The notes beneath the pieces were generated by a model. It was given only the letters and a program-made list of their open reading frames with translations, ran no database searches and had not been told where the DNA came from. Below, one piece after another: positions 3,301-36,750 of a stretch of 36,750 nt of DNA. Source of the stretch: a virus; IMG/VR virus record IMGVR_UViG_3300033388_001532, positions 1-36,750 of that record. The stretch is one strand, 5' to 3'. Each line of letters starts with the position of its first letter. The stretch's first letter is position 1. The translations under genes and the position numbers were made by a program.

Positions 3301-4149
3301 TTACCCCTCCATTTCGTCAAGTTCTTTTTGCATAACAGAAAAAACGGTTTCAGCTTTCGGCCCTGAGTGCAAACGCCATGTGCCGCCATCAAAAGACGGA
3401 ACATAGCCTGAGTACCAAAGCGTTAATAATGGTTTCCAAGGATTATCTCCAAGGTCTTCGACATACTTCCATGTCTTAATATTTGGAAATAATCCACCGC
3501 AATAAGCCCAGACCGAAGCCCCGACCGAAGCCCTGACCGAATCCCAGACCGAAGCCCCGACCGAAGCCCAGACCGAAGCCCTGACCGAATCCCCGACCGA
3601 AGCCCCGACCGAAGCCCAGACCGAATCCCCGACCGAAGCCCCGACCGAAGCCCAGACCGAATCCCTGACCGAAGCCCCGACCGAATCCCCGACCGAAGCC
3701 CAGACCGAAGCCCTGACCGAAGCCCAGACCGAAGCCCTGACCGAAGCCCTGACCGAATCCCATTCTTTTAATAGTTTTTTCTTTTTAAAGTCGGGCAAAA
3801 CTTTACCTTTTAACAATAATGGATTTACAGGATTGTTTGCCTCATGCAATTTTAATCCTGTCAGTTTATCCATTTCCTGCCTTTTAATCTCTCGAATAAC
3901 ACGACATTCACCGCGTAATTTTTTAGAATCACTCGCTATAATTTTAACAGCATCAACTTCATAATATCGCGATGGTGCTGTTTGGTATGAGACTGCGTCT
4001 AGTAATGTTGGTGAAAAGTGAATCCCGCGACCGCAAGTGTTATCATGTAAGTCAGGGTTGTCAACTTTCATTAATTTTCCAACGCGCCATTCAGTTACAC
4101 CGTCCCAATGTGACCGTCTGTTTTTGGCTACTGCTTTATAATATTTCAT
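3301..4149 (-). CDS. DUF7666-like protein with 21 tetrapeptide repeats
   Basis: A 282-aa protein starting after GGAGGG. Residues 1-80 (Y-Y-K-A-V through C-G-R-G-I-H-F-S-P and L-x-A-V-S-Y) resemble the N-terminal domain of phage proteins classed as DUF7666 (recalled). Residues about 131-214 are 21 uninterrupted units of (A/D)-S-V-(R/W/G), encoded by 12-bp repeats at 3508-3759. The C-terminal 65 residues are W- and Y-rich (T-W-K-Y, N-P-W-K-P-L, G-G-T-W-R). A strict four-residue period with serine and valine at fixed positions suggests a repetitive beta or helical spacer. Copy-number change would not alter the reading frame. Function unknown. Confidence 0.8.
   Translation of the reverse strand: MKYYKAVAKNRRSHWDGVTEWRVGKLMKVDNPDLHDNTCGRGIHFSPTLLDAVSYQTAPSRYYEVDAVKIIASDSKKLRGECRVIREIKRQEMDKLTGLKLHEANNPVNPLLLKGKVLPDFKKKKLLKEWDSVRASVRASVWASVRASVWASVGDSVGASVRDSVWASVGASVGDSVWASVGASVGDSVRASVWASVGASVWDSVRASVGASVWAYCGGLFPNIKTWKYVEDLGDNPWKPLLTLWYSGYVPSFDGGTWRLHSGPKAETVFSVMQKELDEMEG
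3508..3759 (-). repeat. 21 x 12-bp coding minisatellite
   Basis: Exactly 252 bp of 12-bp units, read on the minus strand as G(C/A)T TCG GTC NGG. N is A, T or G but never C, giving R, W or G. The second base of the first codon alternates C/A, giving A or D. All other positions are fixed. All three forward frames of the repeat stay open. Confidence 0.95.
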
Positions 4150-5083: not shown

Positions 5084-5086
5084 GGG

Positions 5087-5341
5087 TTAAATTTCCCAGC
5101 AATCCATATTTTCAGCGACCCAGTATTCGTTATACCGCCCGCTTCCGTTGCTTGCTTCAGTGTTACTCAAAGATGCATAGTCGTTATCTTTAATATCAAA
5201 ATCCCAACCTTCACAATCATCACATGAGGCACATTCAATTATTGCTTCTTCTGCGCTACTTGCTTCAACTTCATACTGTTCATTCGCTGATTCATCTACG
5301 CCTGCTACGCCTTTGATTAATTCTACCAAGTACATGCTCAT
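5087..5341 (-). CDS. Hypothetical acidic protein
   Basis: An 84-aa protein starting after CGAGGAGAAATGAT. It opens with a hydrophobic strand (M-Y-L-V-E-L-I) and has the motif A-S-S-A-E-E-A-I-I-E-C-A-S-C-D-D-C. An E-A-x-S-A-E-E-A-I pattern is common in small phage proteins with a ferredoxin-like fold (inference). It has its own promoter and is the first leftward gene next to the divergent GntR-type regulator, so regulation by that protein is plausible. Confidence 0.72.
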   Translation of the reverse strand: MSMYLVELIKGVAGVDESANEQYEVEASSAEEAIIECASCDDCEGWDFDIKDNDYASLSNTEASNGSGRYNEYWVAENMDCWEI

Positions 5342-5417: not shown

Positions 5418-5449
5418 GCACTAATTTAAAATAAATTTACGTCCACCCC

Positions 5450-5500: not shown

Positions 5501-5824
5501 ATGAAACAAACACAAACCAAAATTACCCATAAATTACTGTGCTCCATAGCTTTAGGGGAGTACGAAGCGGGCGACAAGATACCGTCCATGCGCAAGGTCT
5601 GTGCGGACACGGGCGCGTCTTTGACCACCGTACAAGAGGCTTTCCACGAATTACGCGACATGCATGCAGTGTACAATCCGACCAAAAACAGCGGTTATAT
5701 CGTGACAGACATCGGCCAGAGCGCAGCGAAGAACGAGATACTAGCCGATTTGAAAGCAAAGTTTGGGAAGATTGAAGAGACAGCGCGGAGCGCGGGTATC
5801 GACATTGCAGAAGTTACCCGCTAG
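5501..5824 (+). CDS. GntR-type winged-helix DNA-binding protein
   Basis: A 107-aa protein with AAAGGTG before its ATG. Residues about 8-72 match a GntR-type winged helix: G-E-Y-x2-G-D-K-I-P-S-M-R-K-V, then T-G-A-S-L-T-T-V-Q-E-A-F recognition helix, then N-S-G-Y-I-V wing. Only about 35 helical residues follow, so there is no effector domain, as in the short YtrA-like GntR proteins. It lies between divergent promoters and is probably a transcription regulator of both arms. A second possibility is that it fills the small-terminase slot directly before the large terminase; that is speculation from position. No other repressor-like gene is visible. Confidence 0.85.
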   Translation: MKQTQTKITHKLLCSIALGEYEAGDKIPSMRKVCADTGASLTTVQEAFHELRDMHAVYNPTKNSGYIVTDIGQSAAKNEILADLKAKFGKIEETARSAGIDIAEVTR

Positions 5825-23900: not shown

Positions 23901-24161
23901 ACGTCAACCCCGCAGGATGTAGCGCCAACAGGCGATGTGGGCATAAGCGAGGATCTAGCGCGGGCCGACCATAGGCACGCGGGCGGAAGTGACGTTGCGA
24001 TAGTGACCTCGCTCCCTGCGATCCCGACCTCCGGTATGCTTGAGGTTTTCTGGACAAGCGCGGGCGTTGGCACGGGTGACGATCAAGTATGGCGGGTATA
24101 CGCTGGGCAGAGCGCATTTACCCCAACGCAGTTCACTAGTTCACTTTCGGGGACTCCATAA
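20970..24161 (+). CDS. Tal-like tail hub protein with N-terminal adhesin module and 12 internal repeats
   Basis: The largest gene (1063 aa). Residues 1-185 form a DNRLRE/carbohydrate-binding-like beta domain (P-Q-G-A-T-I-T-S-A-T-L-R-L-R-V). Residues 189-464 are 12 repeats of about 23 aa centred on V-T-G-A-M-S-T-P. Residues about 470-800 resemble the Tal/prophage endopeptidase-tail hub: L-E-L-H-E-Q-D-G-T, T-I-E-D-I-V-D-D-I-F, G-K-S-I-L-E-S-L-N-D-I, Y-G-R-G-S-D-K-D-I. The C-terminal region carries two E-(E/D)-L-(S/A)-x2-(N/D)-H-x-H motifs typical of fibre attachment segments. It should form the trimeric tail tip that contacts and penetrates the host. The adhesin and repeats placed before the hub are unusual. 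Confidence 0.85.
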   Translation: MPTVNTFVGTGNDDYAITYVSDSDFVASNAGDAGRSIGNLFTKFGIAARIPVEVPQGATITSATLRLRVNTTYSGGSFPDFRCLVNAADNSAGFSDGTNIGSTRSWYAATLTQIASSYSVDDAVDLNVTAGIQSLVNRGGFVENNYCTIAVADDESLKTDPNLGVYMYNGSTTKCPELIIVYSTGPASVDVTGAMSTPASVMAANVDVSGFNVTGAMDTPATTMSASAGFDATIAITGAMSAPATTMLASATSGVAVEITGAMSTPASTMSGEAVAGVDVTVTGAMDTPVSTMSGVVLTSNLVSVTGAMSTPSITMAASVDTQSDVEVTGAMTSPASQMSGTVVVNSAIAVTGAMSTPNTTMNGVVDLNATVTVTGAMTTPNVEMSGVVDLNDPQLVTGAMSTPNTTMFANVVINQTIEVTGAMTSSSTTMNANVYNQGFVTVAGAMDTPVIEMSASVTVEALPDYSDTQSAPFRLELHEQDGTLIDFLPDFIGGSWSARANEPETLTFSYAGDDSRTSGFVFPNEVWLLRGDNTTALQKFIITKINESESEARAVDVEARSYLYQLSKEMVSSYDSTGKTIEDIVDDIFTYQTQTPAITAGFIDDDIKDEIRTLNIEGKSILESLNDIKRSIGGYFAVTTSREFVWHRQIGTEHGFQLRIGKNCNLIKKNIDLSNIATRITAYGRGSDKDIRLISTKNDAPAQATYGIIQDFVPNQTISNKAMLDKIAQAELDRRKVPRITYDVDAVDLSQTDVLDFSFEASMLEIGTILNLIGGQSDVDIYTQVCSVTRSLTNPLDVQVNVTNPDAGTVLWGQNESIESQPKTLLDYVAALYKKTKIQEFDTGTLDEIMAGIAGGTLETPSATPLDGLDSIQYYNLGTNTGNLGTSVSGIIQSDPDIQDDINDVITARFSTDTPEPVAAAGSVGSSEELSHSNHVHEGVNEADLPDLVSDIIQNDTTVQGDIENITNTTIVNKFSTSTPQDVAPTGDVGISEDLARADHRHAGGSDVAIVTSLPAIPTSGMLEVFWTSAGVGTGDDQVWRVYAGQSAFTPTQFTSSLSGTP
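21534..22362 (+). repeat. 12 x 69-bp coding repeats
   Basis: Twelve diverged units of about 69 bp, each encoding about 23 aa with T-G-A-M-(S/D/T)-(T/S)-P. Conserved GTCAC(A/G)GGCGC(A/G)ATG cores make the array visible at DNA level. It lies within the Tal-like gene. Confidence 0.9.
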
Positions 24162-25084
24162 TGGGATGGCCTGCTGCAAATTTTACAAAGCGTTCATTCG
24201 CTGATTTAGCGGGTGACATGGCTGCGCTGATTCGGGCGCTGAATCAGAGACGCGAGGCAGTTGGTTCCACAACTGTTGACTTTGCATATAATGGTGGGAC
24301 AAAAGCATATCCAAGCGCAGCGGAACTGTCAGGATGGTCTTTGTTTGGTACTGATTTTCAAGATAACATGAAAGACTTACAAACAGAAGCGGCTTTTTTG
24401 TTTTTTATAACAAATGTGACATGGTATGAAACATCTGGTTTTTCAACTCAATGGACATTTGCAAGTATAATTGCTGATATAGGCTTAGGCTCATTTGATT
24501 CTGATCCACAGCCAAGTGATGCTGATTATTGGGAAAGGCTAAGAGAATATTTTGATAGATTAATATATCCAAATGTTATACATGCTGCCACATCGGGTGA
24601 TGGTTCTTCAGATCGAAGAATAGACACAGGGTCAACGCTTGAAATCGCATGGGATAACGCAATTACTGCGACACCAACATCAACAATATTTCATACTATA
24701 TCATATAACTATACACTATCAGTCAGTACTTATACTGTGACAATCCTAGACAACGCAACATCTTCTATAAATTTAACAAATATTGACGGAACAATATTAG
24801 GCACACCATTTATACGATATTCTCATAGGGGCAGTGGCACTGATTCTCAGTCTGTAACAACAGACGTTGGAACGTTCACAGCAACAACAACAAGCAGCAC
24901 AAGCGATCTTGATTGGGGGGGGTTGACATTAGGGATAACGAACACAATAGATCATAATTGGACATCAACGCCGTCAGATCATCCATTTACGGGAGGATCA
25001 GGATCTTCATTACAGGCTGGTGGATCTGGTGGTGTTCTTGTACATATAAATATTGATATATCTAGTGCTTTAACCGACCAATAA
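24161..25084 (+). CDS. Tail-tip or fibre protein
   Basis: A 307-aa protein whose start overlaps the Tal stop (TAATG). The N-terminus is helical (F-A-D-L-A-G-D-M-A-A-L-I-R-A-L-N-Q-R); the C-terminal half is a T/S-rich beta region ending in a glycine-serine-rich segment. It is more AT-rich in codon choice than its neighbours, suggesting a module acquired separately. Likely receptor-facing; no enzymatic motif seen. Confidence 0.65.
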   Translation: MGWPAANFTKRSFADLAGDMAALIRALNQRREAVGSTTVDFAYNGGTKAYPSAAELSGWSLFGTDFQDNMKDLQTEAAFLFFITNVTWYETSGFSTQWTFASIIADIGLGSFDSDPQPSDADYWERLREYFDRLIYPNVIHAATSGDGSSDRRIDTGSTLEIAWDNAITATPTSTIFHTISYNYTLSVSTYTVTILDNATSSINLTNIDGTILGTPFIRYSHRGSGTDSQSVTTDVGTFTATTTSSTSDLDWGGLTLGITNTIDHNWTSTPSDHPFTGGSGSSLQAGGSGGVLVHINIDISSALTDQ

Positions 25085-25756: not shown

Positions 25757-25794
25757 CCCCTCACCGTTTATGTCCTTTCCGGTGGGGGGTTTTT
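25757..25794 (+). terminator. Strong intrinsic terminator of the late operon
   Basis: A 10-bp stem CCCCTCACCG/CGGTGGGGGG (25757-25766 with 25780-25789, one U-G pair), 13-nt loop, then TTTTT (25790-25794). It separates the virion operon from the promoter at 25801. Confidence 0.95.
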
Positions 25795-25800
25795 CTGTGC

Positions 25801-25830
25801 TTGACAGAAGGGGCACGGGTGTGCTACTAT
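25801..25830 (+). promoter_or_regulatory. Sigma70-type promoter of the replication operon
   Basis: TTGACA (25801-25806), an 18-bp spacer, then TACTAT (25825-25830). It begins six bases after the U-run of the late terminator. The leader RNA would start near 25837. Confidence 0.82.
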
Positions 25831-25855
25831 ACGGTCAGCTTGGAGGGGCTACTAA

Positions 25856-25942
25856 ATGATATTAACTTTAGCACACGTCACAGATAAAAGATTACGATCA
25901 CGATCTTTTGCAATGGGCGCGGGTTCCCTCCCCCGCGATTAG
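25856..25942 (+). CDS. Candidate 28-aa leader peptide
   Basis: A short ORF (M-I-L-T-L-A-H-V-T-D-K-R-L-R-S-R, then a short tail) with GGAGGGG seven nt before its ATG. It overlaps the 5' strand of the closing helix and both inner hairpins of the RNA structure at 25869-25977. Translation to the stop at 25942 would open that structure, so it may be a regulatory leader rather than a functional protein. There is no run of one amino acid as in classical attenuators. Confidence 0.45.
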   Translation: MILTLAHVTDKRLRSRSFAMGAGSLPRD

Positions 25943-25977
25943 GCTTACCCTTGCACTGTGGCGTGTGCTATTTTTTT
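25869..25977 (+). ncRNA. Candidate structured leader RNA / attenuator
   Basis: Nested pairing is visible: P1 TAGCACACG/CGTGTGCTA (25869-25877 with 25962-25970, 9 bp). Inside it are a hairpin AAAAGAT/ATCTTTT (25886-25892 with 25903-25909), a helix GCAA-U-GGG/CCC-TTGC with one bulge (25910-25917 with 25948-25954), and a hairpin CGCGGG/CCCGCG (25918-25923 with 25932-25937). Seven Us (25971-25977) follow P1 directly, and the GAAAGGA ribosome-binding site comes next. It could terminate transcription or hide that site. No known class recognised. Confidence 0.6.
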
Positions 25978-25985
25978 GAAAGGAT
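25959..25985 (+). repeat. 27-bp direct repeat, copy 1
   Basis: Identical to 26154-26180. It includes the P1 3' strand, seven Ts and GAAAGGAT just before a start codon. Confidence 0.95.
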
Positions 25986-25990
25986 AGGTT

Positions 25991-26152
25991 ATGATTGATT
26001 TTTTTATGGTCTTAGGCGCATTCTCATCGTTGGCTTTAATTGGTAGCAGTATGGGCTATAAAGAAACAGGAAAGGGAAGGTTTCTTACTTGTATATTATT
26101 TTTTCTGTTCTTTACTATATTCTCATTTGTACGAGTTGGAATGTTGTTGTAA
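25991..26152 (+). CDS. 53-aa membrane microprotein
   Basis: A small protein with GAAAGGAT upstream. Two hydrophobic helices are separated by a basic loop (Y-K-E-T-G-K-G-R): residues about 4-22 and 31-47, the second phenylalanine-rich. First gene behind the structured leader. It may act on the host membrane early in infection (inference) or be a holin-like protein. Confidence 0.65.
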   Translation: MIDFFMVLGAFSSLALIGSSMGYKETGKGRFLTCILFFLFFTIFSFVRVGMLL

Positions 26153-26153
26153 A

Positions 26154-26180
26154 TGGCGTGTGCTATTTTTTTGAAAGGAT
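26154..26180 (+). repeat. 27-bp direct repeat, copy 2
   Basis: Exact copy of 25959-25985, 195 bp downstream, again supplying the ribosome-binding site for the next gene. Confidence 0.95.
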
Positions 26181-26185
26181 GGATT

Positions 26186-26482
26186 ATGGAGAAGTATCAA
26201 ACAAAAGCAACAAAGGTTAACGTGACAAAATGGGAAAAACACGGAGACCATCACCTTATAAATAAAAAAAGGCAGACAAGAGCCAACAAAGATACTCCAT
26301 GTTATGTATGCGGAAAACCAATGAGTGATCACGGGTGGTTTTGGTGGGGATCGAGCTACTATGATGTTTGCCCAAATAGTTTCATTGTTGAAGGTGACGA
26401 CAATTTTGAAGACCATATAAATGTGTGCGACAAGGACACTTTTGAAGATCTGTACGAAAAAATAGAAACGGAGGAATCATGA
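26186..26482 (+). CDS. PGDYG-related zinc-binding protein, diverged copy
   Basis: A 98-aa protein; the start at 26186 follows AAAGGATGG. It parallels the protein at 27306-27605: basic start, K-W-x-K-H-G-D-H-H, then C39-x2-C42-x-K-P-M-x-D-H-G-W, V-C62-P, I-V-x-G and C-x2-D-x-F-E-x-L-Y-E. It is probably a diverged paralogue with the zinc-binding cysteines kept. Function unknown. Confidence 0.7.
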   Translation: MEKYQTKATKVNVTKWEKHGDHHLINKKRQTRANKDTPCYVCGKPMSDHGWFWWGSSYYDVCPNSFIVEGDDNFEDHINVCDKDTFEDLYEKIETEES

Positions 26483-27309
26483 ACGAACCAGAGAAAATGG
26501 AACTATGGAAGTACGCGTTTGAAACCGACCCTGCGCATACGAAGGAGGTAGATTATAAGTATAAATTTACAGCCATCGATGCATATTACCAAATCCAAAA
26601 AGTAACAGAAATGTTTGGGCCGTGCGGTAAGGGCTGGTGGTACGAAGTGGGTGAGGAAAAAATCATAGGCGAACATCTTAGCTTACCTATTAAACTGTAT
26701 TACAAAGGATGTGACCACCCTATACCAGTATTTGGCAGTTGCATGAAAGCGAAGGGAGATGTTGATTGTTTAAAGAAAGCATTAACAAACGGCCTTACAA
26801 AAGCATTCAGCTATCTTGGCGTTTCTGGTGACGTTTTCATGGGTAAGTTTGATGATGTGGATTACGTGAACGCGATGAATAAAAAGGTTGCCGATGAAAA
26901 GGGGCAGACCGAAACCCTCGCGATCCTTGACGAACCGTTGCTGGATTTATCCGCTATGACGGGAAAGGATTGTGTCATCTACGGCAACAAATTAGCGGAG
27001 GTGTTCGGGTATCAAGCGGGCGTCAATGCCTATTTCAAGATGCGGTCAGGCTTTCAAAATTGGGATGACATTAACAAAAACGTGACGCATGTACGCAGGG
27101 CGGTAAGTCGCCTGTACCAGACTGCTAGTATCTGGCAGGAAATCAAGGGCACACTGAAACCGCAAGCGATTGAGAAGCTAAAGGAGAGCTTTGAACAAGA
27201 GGTGGCAGACAGTAAGACAGACACAAGCGAACCAGTACTTTCGATGGTGGGTGCGTCTGTGGAAATGTTAGAAGCAGAACTAACCAAAATCAAAGGAGAG
27301 GACGTATGA
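26479..27309 (+). CDS. Rad52-superfamily single-strand annealing protein
   Basis: A 276-aa recombinase candidate coupled to both neighbours (4-nt overlaps). Residues 1-130 carry W-K-Y-A-F-E-T-D-P-x2-T-K, F-T-A-I-D-A-Y-Y-Q-I-Q-K-V-T-E-M-F-G-P-C-G-K-G-W, D-V-D-C-L-K-K-A-L-T-N-G-L-T-K-A-F-S-Y-L-G and D-V-F-M-G-K-F-D-D-V-D-Y-V. This is the pattern of phage Rad52/Sak-like annealing proteins. It would anneal complementary single strands in phage recombination with the SSB at 28044. The C-terminal 120 residues are helical and less conserved. Confidence 0.8.
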   Translation: MNEPEKMELWKYAFETDPAHTKEVDYKYKFTAIDAYYQIQKVTEMFGPCGKGWWYEVGEEKIIGEHLSLPIKLYYKGCDHPIPVFGSCMKAKGDVDCLKKALTNGLTKAFSYLGVSGDVFMGKFDDVDYVNAMNKKVADEKGQTETLAILDEPLLDLSAMTGKDCVIYGNKLAEVFGYQAGVNAYFKMRSGFQNWDDINKNVTHVRRAVSRLYQTASIWQEIKGTLKPQAIEKLKESFEQEVADSKTDTSEPVLSMVGASVEMLEAELTKIKGEDV

Positions 27310-27605
27310 AATTCAGAAAAAAGCCGGTAGTAATTGAGGCTGCGCAGTGGTTTAAAAATGGCGACCACCCTAAAGATGGCGATCCTTGCACTGAGGGTGA
27401 TATGGTTCGATACTACCGCACTCCAGATACGGACAGTAATAAAACATGTAAGCATTGCCGAATGCCCATGAAATTACACGGTTGGCTTGACACGCTAGAA
27501 GGTGGCCATATCGTGTGTCCTGAAGATTGGGTTATCACAGGGGTGCAAGGTGAAATGTACCCGTGCAAGCCTGATATTTTCGAAGCAACTTATGAAGCTG
27601 AATAA
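27306..27605 (+). CDS. PGDYG-family protein
   Basis: A 99-aa protein of a very common phage family: K-F-R-K-K-P-V-V-I-E-A-A-Q-W-F-K-N-G-D-H at the start, C48-x2-C51, H-G-W-L-D-T-L-E-G-G-H, V-C71-P-E-D-W-V-I-T-G-V-Q-G-E and P-D-I-F-E-A-T-Y-E. Four cysteine/histidine sites suggest zinc binding. Biochemical role unknown. Confidence 0.88.
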   Translation: MKFRKKPVVIEAAQWFKNGDHPKDGDPCTEGDMVRYYRTPDTDSNKTCKHCRMPMKLHGWLDTLEGGHIVCPEDWVITGVQGEMYPCKPDIFEATYEAE

Positions 27606-28051: not shown

Positions 28052-28475
28052 CGCACGAATTCCAGACGTAAACGAACTATTTTTAGCCGGTCGCCTCACG
28101 CGCGACCCCGAACTAAAACAGCTATCAAGCGGGACGCAGCTTGCCAAGTTCGGTTTTGTCCACTCGCGCAAATTCAAGGGCGAAGAACACCCCATGTTTA
28201 TCGATGTGACAGTATGGGGCCAGTCTGCTGAGTATGTAGCGCAGAACCTCACCAAAGGCGATAAGGTGATGCTGCGCGGTCGTCTCGAACAAGAGACATG
28301 GGACGATAAGCAGACGGGTGCGAAGCGTAGTAAGCACACGATGACTGCGCACAATGTTAATGCTCTTGAATGGCCCGATGACGGTCAGCAGGCAGCACCC
28401 AAAAAAGAATATGATGGCGGCTATGTTGCACCACCAAAAGAACAACCAATACCGGAAGATGACATCCCATTTTAA
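28044..28475 (+). CDS. ssb: Single-stranded DNA-binding protein
   Basis: A 143-aa SSB. The OB-fold starts with N-E-L-F-L-A-G-R-L-T-R-D-P-E-L-K and continues through A-K-F-G-F-V-H-S-R-K, F-I-D-V-T-V-W-G-Q-S-A-E-Y-V and G-D-K-V-M-L-R-G-R-L-E-Q-E-T-W. The C-terminus is a glycine/proline linker ending in the acidic tip E-D-D-I-P-F that recruits partner proteins. It coats single strands during replication and cooperates with the Rad52-like protein. Confidence 0.97.
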   Translation: MGNARIPDVNELFLAGRLTRDPELKQLSSGTQLAKFGFVHSRKFKGEEHPMFIDVTVWGQSAEYVAQNLTKGDKVMLRGRLEQETWDDKQTGAKRSKHTMTAHNVNALEWPDDGQQAAPKKEYDGGYVAPPKEQPIPEDDIPF

Positions 28476-31873: not shown

Positions 31874-32240
31874 ACAAAACGACCCACTCAACCCCAACCA
31901 CTACATCCTACATGACGTAGTGGTGTCTAACCACGCGGACGGACGCGCCACAGTGGAATGTCAAGACATCCTCGCAGCCCTTGATCCCAACTTCTTCGTT
32001 GGCGCGGCTATCAAGTATCTGTTTCGTGTTGGCAAAAAAGACGGTAACAGCACGTTGCAGGATTTAAACAAGGCGCGGCACCGGGTGGACAGGGCGATTG
32101 TTCAGGCCGAAGACGAATTGTATGAGGTGCAAGTTGAGGAAAAAGAATGTGGCAACTGTATTTATGGAATGGTTAATCCTCGCCACTATCCTTGTGAGTC
32201 TTGTACAGATCGAAGTGAATGGTTGCAAAAAAAGACTTGA
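31866..32240 (+). CDS. DUF3310 protein with C-terminal zinc ribbon
   Basis: A 124-aa protein. Residues 8-80 match DUF3310: P-N-H-Y, D-I-L-A-A-L, F-V-G-A-A-I-K-Y-L-F-R-V-G-K-K-D-G, D-L-N-K-A-R-H-R-V. A C-terminal C-G-N-C...P-C-E-S-C ribbon is added and resembles the one in the protein at 1482-1952. DUF3310 occurs in many phages near nucleotide or replication genes; its reaction is unknown. Last gene of the replication operon. Confidence 0.85.
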   Translation: MNEQNDPLNPNHYILHDVVVSNHADGRATVECQDILAALDPNFFVGAAIKYLFRVGKKDGNSTLQDLNKARHRVDRAIVQAEDELYEVQVEEKECGNCIYGMVNPRHYPCESCTDRSEWLQKKT

Positions 32241-32265
32241 CACCCGCCCCTTAATCGTGTAAACT
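32237..32265 (+). promoter_or_regulatory. Sigma70-type promoter, possibly leaderless output
   Basis: TTGACA (32237-32242), 17-bp spacer, TAAACT (32260-32265). The expected transcription start, about seven nt on, coincides with the ATG at 32272. Confidence 0.8.
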
Positions 32266-32271
32266 AAGCAC

Positions 32272-32409
32272 ATGAGTTACACAGACTACATTGAGTATTA
32301 CGAAGAGCGCGCGGCCATCCGCGAATACGATGGCCTGCAAACCCGTGAGGACGCGGAGCGGGGTGCGCGAGAGGACTGGGAACGATTAACAAAGGAGGAC
32401 GAAGGATGA
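32272..32409 (+). CDS. Small charged phage protein, probably on a leaderless mRNA
   Basis: A 45-aa protein with T-D-Y-I-E-Y-Y-E-E-R-A-A-I-R-E-Y-D and E-R-G-A-R-E-D, a pattern common in small phage proteins. No Shine-Dalgarno is present, and the ATG sits where transcription from 32237-32265 should begin. Its stop overlaps the next start (ATGA). Confidence 0.7.
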   Translation: MSYTDYIEYYEERAAIREYDGLQTREDAERGAREDWERLTKEDEG

Positions 32410-32922: not shown

Positions 32923-33096
32923 ATGAACATTCCTGGACTTTTAAGAAAGTCAGATGAATTAAGAATAAGAGACTTAGAAGCTGAATTAGAAAGCGCATGG
33001 GATAAAATTTATAAATTAAAGGAATGTGTAGATATAGACCAGTTTCCAAATATAGATGATATTATCAACAATCCAACCATTAAAGAGGACAAATAA
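32923..33096 (+). CDS. Small coiled-coil protein
   Basis: A 57-aa protein from the ATG at 32923, after GGAGG. L-R-I-R-D-L-E-A-E-L-E-S-A-W-D-K-I-Y-K-L is a likely coiled coil. Its stop overlaps the next start (TAATG). Function unknown. Confidence 0.68.
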   Translation: MNIPGLLRKSDELRIRDLEAELESAWDKIYKLKECVDIDQFPNIDDIINNPTIKEDK

Positions 33097-33464
33097 TGAA
33101 CAAGCAAGAAGCTGAAAAACGATTAAAAGAACTCGCGCAGAACAGCGAAGACGTAGCGCAGCAGGCGCAGTACATTGCACGCGAGCAAGAGAAGCTGGCA
33201 GACGAAATCAAGCGGATGAGTGAAGGGCCGGTGGTGGTTGAAGTAGTCGTGTATCCGGTGCAAGGGCGGAAGTATGACCCAAAAACACATGTGCCGAAAA
33301 ATTTTACTCCTGTTATTTTGAAGCAACAAGAATGTAGTGGTTTTCACAGAACAGGCTATCGAGATTGTGGTGTATGGACATTGATCGGATATAGTATTGG
33401 TGACAGAAAAGTAATAGAGGATTTTTTATATTGGACTCCGCTCCCCATCATGGAGGACGAATAA
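33096..33464 (+). CDS. Coiled-coil plus THVP-domain protein, paralogue 3
   Basis: A 122-aa protein. Residues 1-42 are coiled coil and closely match residues 51-77 of the protein at 1482-1952 (I-A-R-E-Q-E-K-L-A-D-E). The domain at 46-122 has K-Y-D-P-K-T-H-V-P (59-67), tryptophans at 94 and 113, and ends Y-W-T-P-L-P, a DUF551-like ending. It links the THVP family to DUF551 (inference). Coupled to both neighbours. Confidence 0.78.
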   Translation: MNKQEAEKRLKELAQNSEDVAQQAQYIAREQEKLADEIKRMSEGPVVVEVVVYPVQGRKYDPKTHVPKNFTPVILKQQECSGFHRTGYRDCGVWTLIGYSIGDRKVIEDFLYWTPLPIMEDE

Positions 33465-34177: not shown

Positions 34178-34203
34178 CACAGGCACACGCGGTGTGCAAT
34201 AAT
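34174..34203 (+). promoter_or_regulatory. Sigma70-type promoter with palindromic spacer
   Basis: TTGACA (34174-34179), 18-bp spacer, AATAAT (34198-34203). The spacer holds the perfect palindrome GCACAC-GCG-GTGTGC (34183-34197), a probable operator. Confidence 0.75.
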
Positions 34204-34235: not shown

Positions 34236-35048
34236 ATGGCATCTTTAGACGATATTCAAATTTCAGTGGCTCATAACATTGAAGACATTGACGAGGCTAT
34301 GAAAAAGCTGCAAGCATTAAAGGACGCTTGTGTGCCTGTAGAGGCTAAGGAGATGGATGAGGGGTGGCACGAGGCGGGAACCGCGCCATATAGTGATAGA
34401 GACATATGTATTGTTGTCACAGAAAACGGTGATGAAGTTAAGGTTAGATATTATTCAAGAGGAAGAGCGCAATGGGAGGCACAAGAAGCAAAGTCCGCAG
34501 TTGGTAATGTGGTAAAATGGAAATATGCCGATGACGACCCAAATCGAGAGATTAGTCGCAACAACTCATTACTGGAACAATACCCAACCAACTCCCCTGT
34601 CTGGTACGAGTTCCCGAAGTACGGGCCGAGGTTCGCCTTTGACGATGTAAAACTTTCTGTTAAAGAAAGTGATGATACAGCAGTTTATGCGTGGCAGCGA
34701 CATACTACAGGATGGGCTGCTGTAGATAAAAAAATATCGGGAACAATTGATAGCTTTTGTTTGACAGGAAAAACAAAAGTGACAGAGCTTGCACTGTCTG
34801 TTAGTAAGGAAGAAATGACATTGACTACCACCATACCCCTCCCCTCCCTCACTATCACCGGCAGCCGTGACACGCTCACGACCGAGGGCGATAAGGTGAA
34901 GATCGGGTGTGAGGCGCGCACGTTGGAGCATTGGTTGTCACATTATAATAAAATTGGTTCCGAAAACGGCTACACAGGCAAGCAAGTTGACGAATACGGT
35001 GCGTATCTAAAAGCGATCAAGTCAATCGTTGACGCGCGGGAGGGATGA
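34236..35048 (+). CDS. Multidomain protein with DUF551-like and SRDT-type domains
   Basis: A 270-aa protein with CCGGAGGAAAGAAAA upstream. Residues 5-32 are helical. Residues 43-98 (G-W-H-E-A-G-T-A-P-Y, I-C-I-V-V-T-E-N-G-D-E, V-V-K-W-K-Y) are DUF551-like. Residues 205-268 contain T-I-T-G-S-R-D-T-L-T-T, V-K-I-G-C-E-A-R, W-L and E-Y-G-A-Y-L-K-A-I-K-S-I-V-D-A, a domain repeated in the next gene. Function unknown; it has its own regulated promoter. Confidence 0.75.
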   Translation: MASLDDIQISVAHNIEDIDEAMKKLQALKDACVPVEAKEMDEGWHEAGTAPYSDRDICIVVTENGDEVKVRYYSRGRAQWEAQEAKSAVGNVVKWKYADDDPNREISRNNSLLEQYPTNSPVWYEFPKYGPRFAFDDVKLSVKESDDTAVYAWQRHTTGWAAVDKKISGTIDSFCLTGKTKVTELALSVSKEEMTLTTTIPLPSLTITGSRDTLTTEGDKVKIGCEARTLEHWLSHYNKIGSENGYTGKQVDEYGAYLKAIKSIVDAREG

Positions 35049-35749
35049 TGATAACATTAAGCGAAAAAAGCAAATGCGACATGATTGCGAGTATGACAGA
35101 TCGCGCAGGGTGGACGGTAGGCGATATTAAGTTTGAGCTTAAATGTGATGATTGGGCGTTTAGGCGCGCTTTAGCAGAAACAACCACTAGCCAATCATTT
35201 CTTGGAATTGATTGGGCAGCACCAACACAAACCACAACAATGAAAATAACAATACCAACAAAAGAGGACAACGACATGGACATCAAGTTGACAATCAACG
35301 GCAGTCGCGACACTGTGACCACGGATTACGTGACGATCAAGATCGGGTGCGAGGAACGAAGTGTTGATTATTGGTTAAGAGAGGATGTTCTAATCAGCCC
35401 AATGTATAAAGCTATCGGGCGCAACAATAATTACACCTCTGCCGAAATCAAGGAATACGGTGGCTACATTAAGGCGATCAAGCAGATCGCGGACGCGGAG
35501 GAGGCGAGGGTGCCGAAGGTGGTGGTGGTCACCGACCCTGAAGAGGGCCACGTGTACAACACAGAGACCCACGTGCCAGAGAATGGAGTCGATGTTATGT
35601 TGCGCGAACACAGAGCTATCGAAGGGTATAGAATTGATGGTAAAGGTTGGTTTATGTGTACAGAATTAACGCCTCTTTGTTTTAAAGAAACCAACGCCCC
35701 AAAACATTGGAGTAAGGTATTGGCCACTTGTAGCTCTACCCCTCGCTAA
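35045..35749 (+). CDS. SRDT-type plus THVP-domain protein, paralogue 4
   Basis: A 234-aa protein coupled to the previous gene (ATGATGA). Residues 81-153 (L-T-I-N-G-S-R-D-T-V-T-T, I-K-I-G-C-E-E-R, W-L, E-Y-G-G-Y-I-K-A-I-K-Q-I-A-D-A) duplicate the end of the upstream protein. Residues 159-225 are the THVP domain (V-Y-N-T-E-T-H-V-P at 170-178, W202, W222). An in-frame ATG at 35276 with GAGG upstream could give a form starting just before the SRDT domain. Function unknown. Confidence 0.75.
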   Translation: MMITLSEKSKCDMIASMTDRAGWTVGDIKFELKCDDWAFRRALAETTTSQSFLGIDWAAPTQTTTMKITIPTKEDNDMDIKLTINGSRDTVTTDYVTIKIGCEERSVDYWLREDVLISPMYKAIGRNNNYTSAEIKEYGGYIKAIKQIADAEEARVPKVVVVTDPEEGHVYNTETHVPENGVDVMLREHRAIEGYRIDGKGWFMCTELTPLCFKETNAPKHWSKVLATCSSTPR

Positions 35750-36636: not shown

Positions 36637-36750
36637 ACCCCCGCACAGCGCAGCCTAGGCGCACCACGAAGGGGTGAGCGTATGCAATAGAGCCCTTTTA
36701 CCCCCAACACAGCACCCCCCGTATCATATGCAGCACGCCACGAAAATGAT
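36637..36750. repeat. Right terminal inverted repeat, 114 bp
   Basis: Exact reverse complement of 1-114. The adjoining 36598-36636 is a short noncoding spacer with no homology to the left side. Confidence 0.97.

Follow-up and report, generated by a model that had tools for sequence, protein, structure and literature searches.

What does the structured RNA at the head of this phage's replication genes do, and could ribosomes on a short ORF within it decide whether those genes are transcribed? We addressed this in the whole stretch of DNA presented here (hereafter, the window), 36,750 nucleotides in length. The record is a 36.75-kb tailed phage carrying terminase, portal, protease, and capsid genes, and the leader element is placed between its late/lysis genes and a rightward replication/recombination operon, whose products are an annealing protein (phrog_7838), an SSB, an IstB/DnaC-like ATPase, a RusA-like resolvase, and a DNA-repair exonuclease. 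Tentatively, at somewhat under an even chance, we read the element as an intrinsic attenuator, sensitive to translation, in the operon's 5′ leader. An attenuator had been proposed in the initial annotation; the anatomy described there (promoter, ORF over the left arm, long helix, U7 tract, and operon) stands, while two of the mechanistic claims had to be amended.

Several other properties of the record came to light. Its ends (1-114 and 36637-36750) are perfect 114-bp inverted terminal repeats, which reflect either an effect of assembly or a linear genome that is complete and has inverted ends, an arrangement unusual for a tailed phage. A segment resembling VVVTxPxxGxVYdTETHVP recurs in four early proteins (188-583 and 1482-1952 on the - strand, 33096-33464 and 35045-35749 on the + strand) and seems to be a domain repeated within the phage. 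Inside a - strand gene (3301-4149), some 20 tandem 12-nt repeats at 3456-3809 encode a four-residue repeat of the ASVW/ASVG/DSVR type.

Promoter, fold, and closing helix of the leader

The features on which the analysis draws are the following:

25757-25789, + strand: intrinsic terminator closing the late (lysis) transcript; hairpin with a 10-11 bp stem and T5
25801-25830, + strand: strong predicted sigma-70 promoter, TTGACA-18-TACTAT, with extended -10 TGC, just past the late terminator
25842-25848, + strand: strong Shine-Dalgarno (SD) sequence of the leader ORF, GGAGGGG; read from the sequence, UCCCUCC in the P3 loop (inner GC-rich hairpin) is complementary to it
25856-25942, + strand: 28-aa leader ORF, MILTLAHVTDKRLRSRSFAMGAGSLPRD; ATG at 25856, stop TAG at 25940-25942
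25869-25883, + strand: left arm of P1 (the closing helix), TAGCACACGTCACAG; falls within ORF codons 5-10
25886-25909, + strand: inner hairpin P2, AAAAGAT...ATCTTTT
25909-25955, + strand: inner GC-rich hairpin P3; folded alone, -18.3 kcal/mol
25956-25970, + strand: right arm of P1, CTGTGGCGTGTGCTA
25971-25977, + strand: U7 tract abutting P1; predicted termination zone
25959-25993, + strand: copy 1 of a 35-nt repeat, comprising 12 nt of the right arm, U7, and the SD and ATG of gene 1
25991-26152, + strand: gene 1, a 53-aa hydrophobic protein without a family match
26154-26188, + strand: copy 2 of the repeat, 33/35 identical, ahead of gene 2; 12-bp pairing with the left arm possible
26186-26482, + strand: gene 2, with likely start ATG 26186 and SD 26174-26180 (start choice inferred; the ORF as listed opens at ATG 26153)
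26479-27309, + strand: single-strand annealing/exonuclease-associated protein (phrog_7838), the earliest recognizable gene of the operon

The promoter does lie directly after the late terminator, as had been claimed, and the leader RNA is predicted to start at about 25837; promoter activity at 25801-25830 is predicted from the sequence. The CTTGACA signature of this promoter is common to 11 phage promoters (5449, 5888, 25800, 32236, 34173, and 35847 on the + strand; 5418, 5084, 2020, 1384, and 654 on the - strand), with the consensus CTTGACA-17/18-(TGTG)TANNNT. At nine of the ten others, an SD-preceded start codon follows 19-42 nt past the -10; for the - strand promoter at 5418, the scripted pick was an ATG at 42 nt opening a 2-codon frame, with the real gene start a few bases on, at 5341. 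The tenth (32236-32274) has its ATG nearly at the RNA start, its -10 ending about 6 nt ahead of the ATG at 32272, and likely gives a leaderless mRNA. The only other CTTGACA sites from the leader to 32236, at 27486 and 28503, are intragenic and are not followed by the start codon of any new operon; expression of the operon therefore probably depends on read-through of the leader. Several signature promoters have inverted repeats between their boxes, such as GCACACGCGGTGTGC (about 34183-34197), which are possible operators, and a 107-aa protein encoded between divergent promoters (5501-5824), resembling by eye a GntR-type winged-helix regulator, is a candidate master regulator of the set.

Folded computationally, 25837-25990 reaches -52.1 kcal/mol, compared with -38.5 +/- 3.7 kcal/mol for 200 dinucleotide shuffles (z = -3.65), none of which was as stable. 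The closing helix P1 consists of 15 consecutive pairs (25869-25883/25956-25970), one of them G-U, and contains two side-by-side hairpins, P2 and P3, making the leader fold a three-way junction. The initial observation is confirmed by this fold with corrections: the seven Us are present at 25971-25977, the closing helix described as 9 bp extends to 15 pairs, and the three helices described as nested are instead a junction with two adjacent hairpins inside P1.

Folding energy alone is unexceptional, ranking 15th of 2441 folding windows after GC correction (top 1%); what stands out is the long helix with its U7 tract. We scanned both strands for stems of at least 10 pairs with a loop of at most 150 nt, followed by a T-tract. 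The scan gave few sites, and P1 was the only terminator-like stem of at least 12 pairs in the window; across 30 shuffles, stems of at least 12 pairs arose at 0.03 per strand and stems of at least 14 pairs never. Another terminator-like site with the same kind of tail lies at 704-676 on the - strand (11 bp and T7). In P1, a GC-containing stem is directly followed by a U-tract (15 bp and U7), as expected of an intrinsic terminator, but its 72-nt loop is long for one and counts against the attenuator reading.

A leader ORF running through the left arm

Between the promoter and P1 lies a translatable short ORF that overlaps one arm of the helix: the left arm, P2, and most of P3 are all within it, and its stop falls in the P1 loop. 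Both the 28-aa ORF with a good ribosome site and its overlap with one closing-helix strand and the inner hairpins are thus as originally described. The ATG lies 25 nt past the -10, and by comparison with the other signature promoters the ORF therefore occupies the position expected of the operon's first gene, which makes its translation likely. The leader contains no run of codons for a single control amino acid, only a mixed AGA/TTA/CGA/TCA/CGA series; its arginine and leucine codons are moderately rare at most, and the P2 palindrome in part dictates them. The peptide includes the RLR motif of macrolide-stalling leader peptides, which we discounted: the same palindrome dictates part of it, and no resistance gene lies downstream. 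Before the right arm has been transcribed, the leader SD tends in the model to pair with UCCCUCC in the P3 loop (5-9% unpaired when the transcript reaches 25930-25950, compared with 45% in the full leader), and this could likewise tune leader translation.

Taking the sequence features together with the predicted helix and how rare it is, we infer termination, its regulatory coupling, and the signal, as follows. RNA polymerase would start at about 25837 and transcribe the leader ORF, while P2 and P3 would fold and draw the P1 arms together. As the right arm emerged, P1 would zip from its inner end, and P1 and U7 would terminate transcription near 25977. A ribosome positioned over codons ~3-12 when polymerase reaches U7 would mask the left arm and allow read-through; with the ribosome absent, or already near the stop codon, P1 would form. 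The switch would read the timing of leader translation (initiation delay, slow early codons), not mere translation of the ORF.

The ribosome was modeled as an assumed 30-nt footprint moved codon by codon, in a thermodynamic rather than kinetic treatment. P1 formed with a probability of 0.99 without a ribosome, 0.00-0.11 with the P-site at codons 3-12, and again 0.99 with the ribosome at codon 15 or later, up to the stop; in the model, the claim that translation prevents the terminator-like helix thus holds for the early codons and fails for the late ones. A blocking ribosome would lag polymerase by ~88-115 nt when U7 is made. Were the first ribosome tightly coupled to polymerase, at a distance of ~37-40 nt, it would by then be close to the stop codon and P1 would be free to form, which counts against the attenuator reading; ribosomes trailing the first might mask the left arm too. 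P1 is predicted to nucleate from its inner end once the transcript reaches ~25960. The further claim, that translation exposes the next ribosome site, is unsupported, since the gene 1 SD (25979-25985) lies outside P1 and its modeled accessibility is hardly changed (0.43 with the helix versus 0.31-0.49 in two modeled states without it).

We found no hairpin dedicated to antitermination: when the left arm is masked in the model, the right arm enters only weak, varied pairs. The lack of an antiterminator helix needing a ribosome, the strength of the helix and U7 by themselves, and the undisturbed P1 modeled with a ribosome at the ORF end are all consistent with a site of partial termination or pausing that the leader ORF does not control, where read-through would depend on a fixed efficiency, on an antitermination factor of the phage, or on a protein or ligand binding the junction. 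We consider this unlikely in view of the strong SD at normal promoter spacing and the ORF codons running straight through the left arm. Distinctly unlikely, in our view, is a post-transcriptional role without termination, such as an mRNA-stabilizing 5′ hairpin, an RNase III processing site, or a binding site for the SSB or annealing protein. A stable stem right at the 5′ end with the gene 1 SD just outside would suit such a role, as would the only leader-type Rfam resemblance, rncO, whose E-value of 2 is far under the cut-off and indicates a chance match; the U7 tract would be needless, and a U-tract directly abutting a helix is the hallmark of an intrinsic terminator.

The repeated right arm before gene 2

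The 35-nt repeat has the consensus TGGCGTGTGCTATTTTTTTGAAAGGAT.G.TTATG, and a comparable match is absent from shuffles. Since the right arm, U7, and SD are duplicated together, the single left arm can pair with either copy, with duplex energies of -25.7 kcal/mol for copy 1 and -19.4 kcal/mol for copy 2 (12 bp). When the copy-1 arm is masked by an initiating ribosome in the model, the left arm pairs with copy 2 (P = 0.92). Such pairing would permit attenuation in two stages by a single left arm that can be reused: it would stop transcription before gene 1 or, when the copy-1 arm is masked by a ribosome starting gene 1, pair with copy 2 and its U7 before gene 2. We give this extension very little credence. 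Ribosome-site motifs TTAAGGAGGTCTCATGAAGT and CGAGGAGAGAGACGATG are repeated at gene starts in the phage (28469-28491/28696-28718, 1952 on the - strand, 35919 on the + strand, and behind the - strand promoter at 5084). Given the gene-start repeats at 28469/28696, copying of ribosome sites between genes is a plain explanation for the duplication.

Those gene-start repeats, and the placement of all six window copies of GTGTGCTA/TAGCACAC (the former being the extended -10 octamer of three phage promoters) in promoters (25819, 1358, 1995) or in the leader element (25869, 25963, 26158), would also suit a DNA-level signal or repeat by-product, in which the arms are extra GTGTGCTA copies (operator or weak promoter) duplicated with the ribosome site and the RNA helix is incidental, but this is improbable to a high degree, as the complementarity spans 15 nt, well beyond the octamer, and includes a G-U pair, and the arms rank only about 120th as -10 elements and lack a -35, on which grounds we rejected extended -10 promoters as their primary function.

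Segments repeated at gene starts, some copies beside inverted repeats, have been described as start-associated and extended start-associated sequences (SAS) in the non-structural half of cluster K mycobacteriophage genomes (PMC3203893). SAS is a 13-bp sequence, GGGATAGGAGCCC, and the inverted repeats have mostly 4-13 bp spacers (PMC3203893), whereas the repeat here is two copies of an unrelated 35-nt sequence containing U7 and one arm of a helix with a 72-nt loop, with no sequence kinship to SAS.

Relatives and comparable leaders

A homologous leader was not found in the searched collections, which may lack records very near the window, and the fold consequently has no covariation support. Rfam returned no family above its curated threshold for the leader, megablast and distant blastn of the region matched phages only over short stretches attributable to chance and plasmids not at all, and an exact scan of IMG/VR for the repeat had no match. 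Two matches to the arm-pair pattern were both unrelated and due to chance, and contigs with the phage's ribosome-site motif proved not to be siblings. Protein scans with the gene-2 protein, terminase, the 24161-25084 protein, and capsid yielded no relatives; by these searches, this is an orphan phage. The annealing protein has relatives at 56 viral loci and one bacterial locus (30-59% identity), which have only that protein and the SSB in common with the phage; a scan of these loci for a hairpin plus T-tract and the promoter signature, with inspection of ten upstream gene layouts, revealed no comparable leader.

Attenuators of the leader-peptide kind are classically associated with bacterial genes for biosynthesis, resistance, and pili. 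In the trp, his, and pyrBI leaders, an intrinsic terminator helix forms or fails to form according to where the ribosome stands on the leader ORF, as we propose for the phage leader. The phage leader differs in having no trp-type antiterminator helix, that is, no alternative helix using an arm of the terminator, no run of control codons for a regulated amino acid, and no biosynthetic operon. HK022 put RNAs and other factor-independent antitermination leaders, which we compared through Rfam (no match), are likewise structured RNAs that open an early phage transcript; those of the put type, however, favor antitermination and have neither a U-tract nor an ORF.

The closest tested mechanism that we found in the open literature is the pil1 leader of Streptococcus gallolyticus, in which a ribosome on the leader ORF destabilizes one terminator stem without a separate antiterminator (PMC3894217). 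The phage leader appears alike in logic, not in sequence or layout. Both have a promoter, a short leader ORF (translated in pil1), a single stem-loop terminator with a T-run (predicted in the phage), and, as proposed here for the phage, masking by a ribosome (PMC3894217). The pil1 ORF ends before, near, or beyond the terminator, its length varying by GCAGA repeats (PMC3894217), whereas the phage ORF continues past the left arm and stops within the loop, the hairpin is branched, there are no phase-variable repeats, and the genes behind it are a phage replication operon.

No description of a phage replication operon with such an attenuator turned up in a lexical search of the open literature, a result that argues only weakly for novelty. 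If the attenuator reading is true, this phage would gate its replication operon by ribosome loading on a 28-codon leader, and expression of its replication genes would be coupled to host translation. Were the two-stage reading also true, there would be a second decision point after gene 1.
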